A stretch of 64,000 nucleotides of DNA. Source: Desulfuribacillus stibiiarsenatis. Lineage in GTDB: Bacteria > Bacillota > Bacilli > Desulfuribacillales > Desulfuribacillaceae. Position numbers and translations under genes: made by a program. Of the stretch, positions 58,793-62,692 are shown piece after piece. The DNA lies in NCBI RefSeq assembly GCF_001742305.1, contig NZ_MJAT01000006.1:1-64000 (forward strand). Reading direction: 5' to 3'. How positions within the stretch are numbered: position 1 is the first letter of the stretch; every line of letters starts with the position of its first letter. The notes under the pieces were generated by a model. That model was not told the origin of the DNA and did not search any database. It saw only the letters and a program-made list of their open reading frames with translations.

Positions 58793-60001
58793 TTACTTCT
58801 TTTCAGTCAAAAAAGTACGTGTGAAAATTGGATTTGGTTCCAGTAAGCTTTCAAACGAGTGAAACCCTAAACGCTTTAATAATGCAATCACGTAAGGATT
58901 ATCAACGGGTGTTTTATAGGTAGCTTCATCGCCGTATGTATTGACATATTTAGTCGCTCGGTCTTTATCAACTAATGCCTTTCCTCCTCCAACGCATCCG
59001 CCAACACATCCCATTCCTTCTAAGAAGTTAGCTTTAATATTTCCAGTTTGAATGTCTTTTAGGAGGGATTTACATTCCATGATTCCATTGGCTTGGAAAG
59101 AGCGCAACGGAATCGAACGATCAGGATTTAAACGGTTTAAAGTATTCTGAACCGCCTCACTTACTCCACCTGTTCTTGCGTATTTTCGTCCAGCAGTCGA
59201 AGAATGGTCTTTTAAATCTTCTTCTAGCTCTTCTGGTTTGATTTCTACTGCCTCAAAGACTTCTTGAATCTCTTGGAAAGTTAGTACGTAATCGACCGCA
59301 TCCTTGACATCTGGTTCTTTTGCTTCTGCCCTTTTTGCAATGCATGGCCCGATAAATACAGTTTTCGCATTCGGGATTAGTTTTTTAATAGCGCGGCCAC
59401 TTGCTACCATTGGTGAAACAGAGGGAGGCATATGAGGAACTAATTCTCCATACACTTTCTTAATCATACCTATCCACATTGGGCAACAGCAACTTGTTAA
59501 TAAGAAGTCATCTTCATTCTTGATGTGATGGTCAAACTCTATCGCTTCCTTTAATGTTAGAATATCAGCAAACAAAGAAACTTCAACCATACCTGCAAAG
59601 CCTAATTTTTTGAATGCACTCCTTAACTTACCTTGTGTCATAGCGTCACTAAACTGACTGACGAATGCTGGTGCAATCATCGCATATACAGGATCATCTG
59701 TATTATTGATAAGTTCGAAGATTGGTAAAACTTCCTTTTTCCCAATCAGATTTTTACTTTTGCAGTCTCCTACACAATCATGACAGCCTGTACAGCAATT
59801 TTCATGAATGGCAACATTTCCGTATTCATCACGTGATAATGCTTCAAAAAAGCAAACCTTATCACAAACTTTACGCATTTCATCGGAACATGAACACTCT
59901 GCTAAACGCAAAACCGGTTTTTGTTTATCAGGATTTAGCAAACAATCAAGATGGGACTCATCAATTTCAACATCAAATAAAGAATTATCATAAGATTTCA
60001 T
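58793..60001 (-). CDS. [FeFe]-hydrogenase-like protein with TSCCCPMW motif
   Basis: A 402-residue homologue of the catalytic [FeFe]-hydrogenase subunit. N-terminal Cys (36, 38, 46, 50 and 69, 70, 73, 76, 80) can hold two iron-sulfur clusters. All three H-cluster motifs are kept: TSCCCPMW (169-176, with an extra Cys), GPCIAKRAEA (218-227) and LEGMGCVGGCVGGG (327-340), so active-site ligation is possible. The triple-Cys motif recalls group B hydrogenases, from memory, more than the classic TSCCPxW of group A. GGAGGGG precedes the start. HydE/F/G maturases are not in the window. It is divergent from an ABC transporter operon. Catalysis or a sensing role is open. Confidence 0.85.
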   Translation of the reverse strand: MKSYDNSLFDVEIDESHLDCLLNPDKQKPVLRLAECSCSDEMRKVCDKVCFFEALSRDEYGNVAIHENCCTGCHDCVGDCKSKNLIGKKEVLPIFELINNTDDPVYAMIAPAFVSQFSDAMTQGKLRSAFKKLGFAGMVEVSLFADILTLKEAIEFDHHIKNEDDFLLTSCCCPMWIGMIKKVYGELVPHMPPSVSPMVASGRAIKKLIPNAKTVFIGPCIAKRAEAKEPDVKDAVDYVLTFQEIQEVFEAVEIKPEELEEDLKDHSSTAGRKYARTGGVSEAVQNTLNRLNPDRSIPLRSFQANGIMECKSLLKDIQTGNIKANFLEGMGCVGGCVGGGKALVDKDRATKYVNTYGDEATYKTPVDNPYVIALLKRLGFHSFESLLEPNPIFTRTFLTEKK

Positions 60002-60249
60002 AGTACCCCTCCTATACCTTTTCTTTTAAAATATATTTACAACTACAATAAAAAAGCTTAGAATTTAATTTAGAATTATTATAAAGCAGCAATTGTATCA
60101 TAACGAAAGATATCAGAATTGACAAGAAGAAATTACCTATGAATATATTAACCATTTATTTCAATGATTATAGATATCTTCCATGATATGATATTAACAT
60201 ATAGCTTCAACTTTTTAAAATATACATAAAGATGAATGGAGAGAGAAAA
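60002..60249. other. Divergent intergenic region between hydrogenase and ABC operon
   Basis: This AT-rich gap must hold both promoters. TTGACA at 60119-60124 with TATATT at 60144-60149 (19-base spacer) is a candidate for the plus-strand operon. I find no clear regulator palindrome. Confidence 0.4.
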
Positions 60250-61245
60250 TTGAAAATCACAAAACAAATCTTGTCTTTAGCACTAATTATGTTTCTTACA
60301 ATGGTACTGATTGCTTGTGAAATTGAAGAAAAGCCGGTTTCTCAAAGCGAGGATAAACAAATTCTTCGAATTGCTACCTTAAAAGGACCCACTGGAATGG
60401 GGATGGTACAGCTTATCGAGAATAATCTACATGGGAAAACACAGTTACATTATGACATTACTTTATATGATAGTCCCGACGCAATGATTGGAAAGATAGT
60501 TAACGGTGAAGTTGATATAGCAGCAGTACCGTCGAATGTAGCATTGCTTTTATATAATCGTACAAATGGTGCTGTGCAACTGGCAGGCGTGAACACACTA
60601 GGGGTATTATATGTACTTGAGAATGGTCAAAAGATTCAAACAGTAGAAGACTTGAAAGGCAATCAAATCGGTATTAGTGGGAAAGGAGCAACTCCCGATT
60701 TCATCACTCGTTATATACTAGAGCAAAATGGAATAAAACCTGATGAGGATGTACAATTAGAGTTCAAATTAGAGCATGCGGATTTAGCAACGGCTATGGC
60801 AGCTGGTGATGTGAAGATCGCTGTATTGCCGCAACCGCATGTTACAACGGCGATAGCTAAAAATCCTCAAATTCGCGTTGCATTAGATTTAAATCAACAA
60901 TGGTCGTCATCTACAGGAGGAAATATCTTACCAATGGGTAGTATAGTAGTCCAAAAATCTATCGCTCAGTCGAATCCCGAGCTAATTCATACATTCTTAG
61001 AAGAATATAACCAGTCTGTGACTTTTGTTAACGAGCAAATGGATTTAGCTGCAGAATGGATGGAAAAGCATAACATCCTCCCAAAGAAAGAAATAGCACG
61101 TAAGGCGATTCCTGATTCTAATATTGTTTTAATGAAAGCAGTTGATGCAAAACCATATCTGGAACACTATTATCAAACGCTTTTTGACTATGAACCTAAG
61201 TCCGTAGGAGGAAAATTAGCAGATGAGGGTTTCTACTTCCAATAG
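60250..61245 (+). CDS. NitT/TauT-type ABC transporter substrate-binding lipoprotein
   Basis: A 331-residue periplasmic-type binding lipoprotein. The signal peptide ends in VLIAC with Cys 23 as the lipid site. LRIATLKGPTGMGMVQLIEN opens the mature domain, and VDIAAVPSNVALLLYNR and NQIGISGKGATPDFITRYIL are typical of the SsuA/TauA/ThiY-like family. The ligand cannot be told from sequence; sulfonates, nitrate, bicarbonate or pyrimidines are usual. TTG 60250 is preferred (GGAGAG six bases before); ATG 60232 lies upstream of that site. It overlaps the permease by 23 bases. Confidence 0.85.
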   Translation: MKITKQILSLALIMFLTMVLIACEIEEKPVSQSEDKQILRIATLKGPTGMGMVQLIENNLHGKTQLHYDITLYDSPDAMIGKIVNGEVDIAAVPSNVALLLYNRTNGAVQLAGVNTLGVLYVLENGQKIQTVEDLKGNQIGISGKGATPDFITRYILEQNGIKPDEDVQLEFKLEHADLATAMAAGDVKIAVLPQPHVTTAIAKNPQIRVALDLNQQWSSSTGGNILPMGSIVVQKSIAQSNPELIHTFLEEYNQSVTFVNEQMDLAAEWMEKHNILPKKEIARKAIPDSNIVLMKAVDAKPYLEHYYQTLFDYEPKSVGGKLADEGFYFQ

Positions 61246-62008
61246 CAGATCGAAATATTCTCGATTCTTATATATTACGAGCATTGGAATGTTCTGGATA
61301 TCCCTCTGGTATCTATTACACGTATATATACAGAAGGAATTATACTTACCTGCACCAATTGATGTAATAATTAGAATAACAGATCTTATTGTAAAACAAT
61401 CTTTCTGGATTTCAATAGGCTCTACCATGTTTCGGGTCCTTGTTGGCATTTTACTTTCTTTGACGGTCGGAACAGCATTTGGTATTATCGCTAGCTTTAA
61501 TCGAGTATTTTACGACTTATTGTTTCCATTTGTTTCAGCGATTAAATCAACACCTGTAATGTCGTTTATAATCCTAGCGTTGCTTTGGTTTTCATCGTCG
61601 AATGTACCAATTTTCATATGCTTTTTAATGTGTTTTCCAATTGTTTATTCAAATGTGATTGAGGGCATTCGCAATACAGACCGTACTCTAGTGGAAATGG
61701 CTAAGGTTTATGGAGTAACAAAGAAGAAAATATTGTCTAAGATATTTCTACCTTCCATACGACCATATATTTTAGCTGCTGTTTCCACTACCTTAGGACT
61801 TGGCTGGAAAGTCAGTGTTGCAGCAGAAGTTCTCAGTCATCCAAGGTTCGGAATCGGTTCTAACATTTTTAATGCAAAAGTATATCTTGACTCAGTAGAA
61901 TTGTTCGCATGGACTTTCGTTGTCATTATTCTTAGCGTATGCTTAGAAAGTCTATTTCAAAAAGTAATGAAAGTAAAATACCTAAGGGGTAACGATAATA
62001 TTGTATGA
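61223..62008 (+). CDS. NitT/TauT-type ABC transporter permease
   Basis: A 261-residue permease with about six helices. LPAPIDVIIRITDLI near 45 is the usual post-first-helix stretch of SsuC-type permeases; the EAA-like loop VEMAKVYGVTKKKILSKIFL is near 155-175, and ISVAAEVLS-like KVSVAAEVLSHPRFGIGSNI follows. TAGGAGG is before ATG 61223. The order binding protein, permease, ATPase forms a complete importer. Confidence 0.9.
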   Translation: MRVSTSNSRSKYSRFLYITSIGMFWISLWYLLHVYIQKELYLPAPIDVIIRITDLIVKQSFWISIGSTMFRVLVGILLSLTVGTAFGIIASFNRVFYDLLFPFVSAIKSTPVMSFIILALLWFSSSNVPIFICFLMCFPIVYSNVIEGIRNTDRTLVEMAKVYGVTKKKILSKIFLPSIRPYILAAVSTTLGLGWKVSVAAEVLSHPRFGIGSNIFNAKVYLDSVELFAWTFVVIILSVCLESLFQKVMKVKYLRGNDNIV

Positions 62009-62026
62009 GAGGGCTCCTAAAAGAAT

Positions 62027-62692
62027 ATGAATAATCAATCGCAGTTATCATTAGAGAGTAAAGATAGAACATTGAACATCGTCTTGTCCAAAAAAACATA
62101 CAATCATGTGAGTGTAATCGAAGAAACTTCGGTTTCGCTTCCATTTGGTTATACACATTGTTTTTTTGGCCCATCAGGATGCGGCAAGACAACATTTCTA
62201 CTTGAAATTGTACAGTATCTAAAGAACCCCAAAAATAATCGTATAGAATTAAAGACTCCAACTATATCGTGTATTTTTCAAGAGGACCGCTTACTACCGT
62301 GGCTTACGCTTTTAGAAAATATCTTATTTGTTACTGATAAATCTAACAGTAAACCTGCCTGTGTACCAGTGGATTTTATCTTAGATATTGTTGGCTTACT
62401 GGAATTTAAGCATTACTATCCCAATCAACTAAGTGGAGGAATGAAACGAAGGGTAGCAATTGCTAGGGCATTAGCATATGACGGTGAAATATTTATCATG
62501 GATGAGCCGTTTAAAGGACTTGATCAAGGGATTAAAACTCAAATTATAAACTACATGAAAGAAACCTTTACTTCTCAAGGAAAAACTGTGCTGTTTGTAA
62601 CCCATGATGACCTTGAAGTAAAGGATTTTGCAGATTATCAGTATATTTGTGAGGGACCTCCATTTAGAATTATAGAGACGAAGAAAATTTGA
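62027..62692 (+). CDS. NitT/TauT-type ABC transporter ATP-binding protein
   Basis: A 221-residue ATPase of the importer. Walker A is GPSGCGKTT (near 47), the signature is LSGGMKRRVAIARAL (near 133), Walker B is IFIMDEP (near 155) and the switch His lies in VTHDD (near 188). The Q-loop is CIFQEDRLLPW, typical of SsuB/TauB. It is shorter than average at the N-terminus. It starts 18 bases after the permease. Confidence 0.9.
   Translation: MNNQSQLSLESKDRTLNIVLSKKTYNHVSVIEETSVSLPFGYTHCFFGPSGCGKTTFLLEIVQYLKNPKNNRIELKTPTISCIFQEDRLLPWLTLLENILFVTDKSNSKPACVPVDFILDIVGLLEFKHYYPNQLSGGMKRRVAIARALAYDGEIFIMDEPFKGLDQGIKTQIINYMKETFTSQGKTVLFVTHDDLEVKDFADYQYICEGPPFRIIETKKI

Follow-up and report, generated by a model that had tools for sequence, protein, structure and literature searches.

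The [FeFe]-hydrogenases of group B are little characterised (PMC8924675). Enzymes of this group (B2), CpIII of Clostridium pasteurianum among them, are marked by the first H-cluster motif TSCCCPxW (PMC5506873, PMC12138974). For CpIII, the first of the three consecutive cysteines is described as supernumerary, the second as the proton-transfer residue and the third as a predicted [4Fe-4S] ligand, and changing the motif to TSCCP is stated there, citing another group's result, to cost 97% of the activity (PMC12138974). The same paper places F266 and G268 of CpIII where CpI has T351 and M353, and A162 where CpI has S232 (PMC12138974). Group B enzymes of gut Bacteroides have been reported from lysates, which gave H2 once artificially activated with [2Fe]adt (PMC12578642). 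As to maturation, the [4Fe-4S] part of the H-cluster is supplied by ordinary Fe-S assembly; HydE and HydF were found, and HydG not detected, in five of the eight acetogenic clostridia of the same report, which also cites about 1% in vitro activation without HydG (PMC9431212). [FeFe]-hydrogenase genes without maturases have already been mentioned in print, in a passage that names neither species nor group (PMC3226654), and phrase searches of the open-access literature for maturase-free hydrogenases found nothing.

The protein considered here is encoded in a window of 64,000 nucleotides (the whole stretch of DNA that was analysed) from Desulfuribacillus stibiiarsenatis, the host. What stands out is the conserved orphan state of a group B protein in one family of Bacilli; the triple-cysteine motif itself is a known signature of the group, not an oddity.

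Motifs, phylogeny and fold of the protein

The gene occupies positions 58793-60001 on the minus strand, an open reading frame of 402 amino acids counted from ATG and apparently a single-gene unit, and is assigned to a group B-type [FeFe]-hydrogenase protein on its PF02906 domain, its place in a tree, and a structural model with its fold match. Its coordinates and the motif TSCCCPMW, both given in an earlier note on this DNA, were read directly in the sequence. Just 5' of the frame lies the ribosome-binding sequence AGGAGGGG (60006-60013, minus strand), likewise read directly. Further upstream, the promoter-like site TTGTCA-17-TATGAT (60097-60125, minus strand) agrees with the consensus at 10 of 12 positions, but it is weak evidence, since promoter-like sites are no commoner in the scanned region than in shuffled sequences (6 against 6.1). 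In a Pfam profile search the PF02906 domain scored 222.9 bits over residues 104-340 (cut-off 22.1), and this is the only PF02906 protein of the host genome, which measures 3.12 Mb and is rated 99.86% complete.

All three H-cluster motifs were read on the minus strand and compared across 29 of the 33 proteins of the clade to which the protein belongs (L124, L125, L133 and L141 were omitted from the residue counts). The first, TSCCCPMW (residues 169-176, 59474-59497), has its cysteines C171-C173 in 29/29 clade rows and in all four CpIII-like rows. The second, GPCIAKRAE (residues 218-226, 59324-59350), carries G in place of the M of the usual MPCxxKxxE, while F216, P219, C220 and K223 each occur in 29/29 clade rows. 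The third, MGCVGGCVGG (residues 330-339, 58985-59014), holds the last two [4Fe-4S]H ligands, C332 and C336. The H-cluster ligands and the proton-transfer cysteine are thus present as C172, C173, C220, C332 and C336, all of them in 29/29 clade rows, and the earlier claim that the second and third motifs are kept stands for the ligands, though not for every residue. F216, G218 and A112, the equivalents of CpIII F266, G268 and A162, are likewise found in 29/29 clade rows each. Also unchanged are all the checked candidates for [2Fe] contact, namely C172 (proton transfer), P111, A112, F216, G218, P219, K223 and M330, and the likely proton-path residues E152, E155 and S196; the roles of these residues are carried over from CpIII and CpI.

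The N-terminal Fe-S region (residues 36-80, 59762-59896, minus strand) contains eight cysteines in the arrangement CxCx7CxxxC ... CxxCxxCxxxC, recognised from the conservation of these cysteines. In full the host pattern reads C36-x-C38-x7-C46-x3-C50, then C69-C70-x2-C73-x2-C76-x3-C80, in agreement with the spacing described before. Seven of the eight are conserved with at most one exception among the clade rows that have a letter at the position, and C38 is found in 20 of 25, whereas C69 is seen in just 2 of 26 such rows, those of the host and of its relative in the family. The eight cysteines are predicted to bind two [4Fe-4S] clusters.

In a tree of 56 rows the host protein falls inside a clade of proteins of roughly 400-430 amino acids (support 97/95); this clade and the CpIII-like rows are sisters (100/99), with group A rows apart (99/97). 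Within the clade the tree resolves only the pairing of the protein with that of its family relative (95/56). Here too 29 of the 33 clade proteins were used, L125, L133, L134 and L140 having been dropped by eye as near-duplicates, and L118, the same gene as L021, was counted once. CpIII is represented by the stand-ins L020 and L145-L147, and the group labels of the other rows were set by motifs and length, not by HydDB. The AlphaFold model (pLDDT 83.8, pTM 0.81) is less certain over the N-terminal 90 residues, and over the Fe-S region there it is only moderately confident (block pLDDT about 56-73). Against solved [FeFe]-hydrogenases it reaches Z scores up to 36.7 over 360 residues, at an rmsd of 4.4. 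A motif or fold pointing away from hydrogenases was looked for and ruled out by the PF02906 and structure matches.

The TSCCCPxW motif, the CpIII-type outer sphere and the grouping with CpIII-like proteins together assign the protein to group B by sequence. Judged by sequence, then, the host protein is an ordinary member of group B in an unusual cell, so that the earlier suggestion of a less studied hydrogenase group was right, and the phylogeny which that suggestion called for sets the protein apart from groups A, C and D. A non-catalytic Fe-S assembly protein like Nar1 or NARF would have the PF02906 domain in common and could also occur in a genome from which the maturases are absent. Such an identity is nevertheless very improbable: the proton-transfer cysteine, the CN-contact lysine and proline and the proton path are kept, the protein groups with CpIII-like enzymes (in a tree without Nar1 rows), and its best structural matches, among listed chains that included no Nar1 entry, are catalytic hydrogenases.

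Distribution, neighbourhood and selection

A scan of named genomes gave six relatives, five of them 54-62% identical to the host protein and one, CpIII-like, at 45%. The same gene, with 72% identity, is carried by a member of the host's family from another genus (G018), and hence by both family genomes examined (2/2). Of 299 sampled genomes of the host's class, 15 had any match, and this type was found only in the host (926.6 bits) and G018 (655.5 bits), which supports the earlier remark that relatives mostly lack such enzymes. Nine of the others gave H-domain matches of 57.9-72.2 bits to group A-like proteins of 584-607 amino acids, and the last four matches were weak, at about 20-22 bits. 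Among 391 genomes of the class of one of the relatives, 71 had a match at E <= 1e-100 when up to four best candidates were scored per genome, in a survey for which genome completeness was not given. These matches form two sets. In 27 genomes the score exceeds 500 bits and the alignment nearly always begins at the first profile columns; the other 44 score 409-463 bits, mostly with longer CpIII-like proteins aligned from about column 45. Truncated matches in G315 and G518, both genomes without detected HydF, were counted in the 44 and not the 27, and probably belong to the first, strong-scoring set. Because most clade members sit in Clostridia, gain by transfer into the host's family would be the simplest reading, which the tree does not prove; an intact group B-type protein of this mainly clostridial sister clade of CpIII-like enzymes was probably acquired by an ancestor of the small Bacilli family of the host.

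The surroundings of the gene vary. A conserved neighbour that might reveal the role of the protein was sought and rejected, there being no shared neighbour across loci L016-L021, L094 and L095. NMT1/SsuA-type ABC transporter genes lie near the gene in the window, L094 and L095, with proteins 24-40% identical and arrangements that differ. In the window this transporter set (60232-62692), which comprises an NMT1/phosphonate-type binding protein, a permease and an ATPase, is divergent from the hydrogenase gene and has a 230-base intergenic region in common with it. In G018 a PAS-SpoIIE phosphatase gene precedes the hydrogenase gene on the same strand, at a distance of 229 bases, a signalling setting which, in that genome only, fits a role in signalling. 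G018 also encodes a second H-domain protein (L037, 334-2283), with N-terminal ferredoxin clusters, a putative Fe-S segment (PF04060) and a fused GGDEF domain. Its first motif has degenerated to AQPCP, the proton-transfer cysteine being gone, and the protein, encoded in a genome without maturases, is a putative cyclic-di-GMP redox sensor. Neither the PAS-SpoIIE neighbour nor the GGDEF-fused H-domain protein is conserved in the host window.

Between the host gene and that of G018, dN is 0.23 while fourfold sites, 74 of 104 of which differ, are saturated, and the protein is therefore held by purifying selection. This bears on whether the protein is a relic, that is, an acquired or formerly active hydrogenase which lost its maturases recently and is now decaying. 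Departures at strongly conserved columns number 6 of 123 in the host protein, among the higher rates of the clade, against 3 of 121 in G018; the clade median is 1 (range 0 to 15), most clostridial members have 0-3, and higher counts are seen in L142, L143 and L144 (5-15) and in L123 (5). The tip branch of the host protein is also longer than that of its relative (0.30 vs 0.16). Decay is all the same unlikely, since the frame is open in both genera, synonymous sites are saturated at a dN of 0.23, and the six changes (F4Y, A142S, L154I, C201S, K224R and P340G) are mild, none falling on an H-cluster ligand or checked active-site residue. The pattern of changes leans towards a retained site, with too few changes to prove a [2Fe] subsite: the test of residue retention is weak because only nine changes (at about 120 columns in the two proteins) are involved, and the chance that none of them would meet the 19 listed residues is estimated at about 0.2.

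Maturases and the cofactor of the protein

To our knowledge HydE, HydF and HydG are the only makers of the [2Fe] subsite, and we know of no alternative pathway. That no maturation genes are adjacent to the hydrogenase gene had been noted earlier; in addition, none of the three was found anywhere in the host genome. The best HydF score was 105.5 bits (cut-off 325.6), from a GTPase domain only, with all 25 candidates scored; the best HydG score was 192.4 bits (cut-off 312.2), from a protein that is ThiH (480 bits against a ThiH cut-off of 380); and the best HydE score, on the same ThiH protein, was 56.9 bits (cut-off 254.6). In G018, whose assembly is rated 100% complete, HydE, HydF and HydG were likewise all not found. 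Elsewhere the searches detect their targets: of 17 genomes, 9 had HydE above cut-off, and these 9 include five large genomes of Bacilli that carry group A hydrogenases; HydF exceeded its cut-off in 56 of 78 and HydG in 2 of 10. The earlier note had held that absence of all maturation genes, combined with a Nar1-like placement, would refute its reading of the protein: the first was found by this search, whereas the placement is CpIII-like, in a tree without Nar1, and the active site is kept.

The first eight carriers had suggested that the whole clade is maturase-free, an idea that was rejected when 23 of the 27 clostridial carriers with strong scores proved to have HydF, which was also detected in 31 of the 44 genomes of the other set. 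Up to 20 best candidates per genome were scored in this survey, and all of them for the host, G018 and G300-G302. HydF was therefore undetected in 17 of the 71 genomes from Clostridia in which a group B-type protein was matched, and some of these 17 may be incomplete. The scan of named genomes had given five close relatives: HydF is present in G299 and G304, and G300, G301 and G302, which are metagenome assemblies, lack all three maturases. The orphan state thus belongs to the host's family and some other genomes. A possible second orphan, in a good assembly, is G472 (genome 5.1 Mb), where contig C1, at least 2.9 Mb long, encodes a hydrogenase of group B type and HydF was not found.

Without HydE, HydF and HydG the host cell could not make the [2Fe] subsite, and because these three maturases are absent, the protein would hold only [4Fe-4S] clusters, two in the N-terminal region and one in the H-domain. 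A protein with three such clusters could plausibly carry electrons or sense redox state. That the protein serves the host in electron transfer or redox sensing, and does not convert H2, is the reading we prefer, with a probability of about 50%. All three maturases are undetected in both family genomes although the searches work elsewhere, and the PAS-SpoIIE neighbour and the GGDEF-fused H-domain protein, both in G018 only, are in keeping with it. Against it, every checked [2Fe]-contact residue is unchanged, when some loss of contacts might be expected in a protein that is always without [2Fe], and in the loci read no sensor partner is conserved beside the gene.

The protein might instead be an ordinary group B hydrogenase whose maturase genes were missed, through an assembly gap, a lost plasmid or the stretches that read as N in these genomes. 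The host assembly is a draft of 39 contigs, and hydE, hydF and hydG need not lie close to the hydrogenase gene; this is nevertheless rather unlikely, as all three genes would have to be missing twice, from assemblies rated 99.86% and 100% complete. An active hydrogenase matured without HydEFG, in which [2Fe] or a simpler diiron substitute is provided by an undescribed route and H2 is made or used, is quite improbable, for HydF and HydE are missing here too, no alternative pathway is known to us, and the frequency of HydF among the strong-scoring clostridial carriers indicates a clade built around normal maturation. In its favour, the checked active-site and proton-path residues are all kept in two maturase-free genera, and partial sets without HydG have been published (PMC9431212) and are also seen in Sedimentibacter acidaminivorans (G304), which has HydE and HydF with HydG below cut-off.

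In that genome hydE and hydF are adjacent and directly behind an ABC transporter operon (L094, 12900-15214), and six PF02906 matches occur with no HydG over the cut-off. Separately, group A-like [FeFe]-hydrogenases with TSCSPGW, a serine at the position of the proton-transfer cysteine, were seen in L024 (G260), L057 (G300), L058 and L065 (G302), L056 (G304) and L060 (G299); four of the six are in genomes without HydE, HydF and HydG and one is in a genome without HydG only. L026 (G004) is a counter-example, with TSCCPGW although HydE, HydF and HydG were not found. TSCSPGW has been noted in Melainabacteria (PMC3787301).

Comparison with known systems

Since group B identity and absent maturation coincide here, the name hydrogenase may describe the ancestry of the protein and not its activity. 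The genomes without detected HydF are also a warning that counts of hydrogenase genes overstate H2 metabolism. A group B protein that is short and intact, in a genome both near-complete and maturase-free, raises the question of whether the fold can serve a cell without [2Fe], and the same system asks whether an [FeFe]-hydrogenase can obtain [2Fe] in another way.

Among curated families, the best NCBIfam match of the host protein is to TIGR04105 (FeFe_hydrog_B1, monomeric [FeFe]-hydrogenase), at 307.1 bits over profile positions 162-460, which lies below the curated cut-off of 450 and so does not make it a B1 member; the CpIII-like L020 is likewise under that cut-off, at 326.7 bits. With the putative sensory [FeFe]-hydrogenases of groups C and D the likeness is the sensor-type PAS-SpoIIE neighbour of the gene in G018, whereas the host protein has no fused PAS or output domain, carries other motifs and sits on a separate branch of the tree. 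For the published maturase-free [FeFe]-hydrogenases no species or group is named in the passage cited, whereas the orphan here is of group B and occurs in two genera of one family. With CpIII the host protein shares TSCCCP, the F/G pair at the second motif and A for S near the cyanide ligand (PMC12138974), as well as the sister position in the tree. It is shorter than the CpIII-like proteins, lacking their N-terminal extension (402 amino acids against frames of mostly 450-490), and differs from CpIII in belonging to another clade and in residing in a genome without HydE, HydF and HydG.
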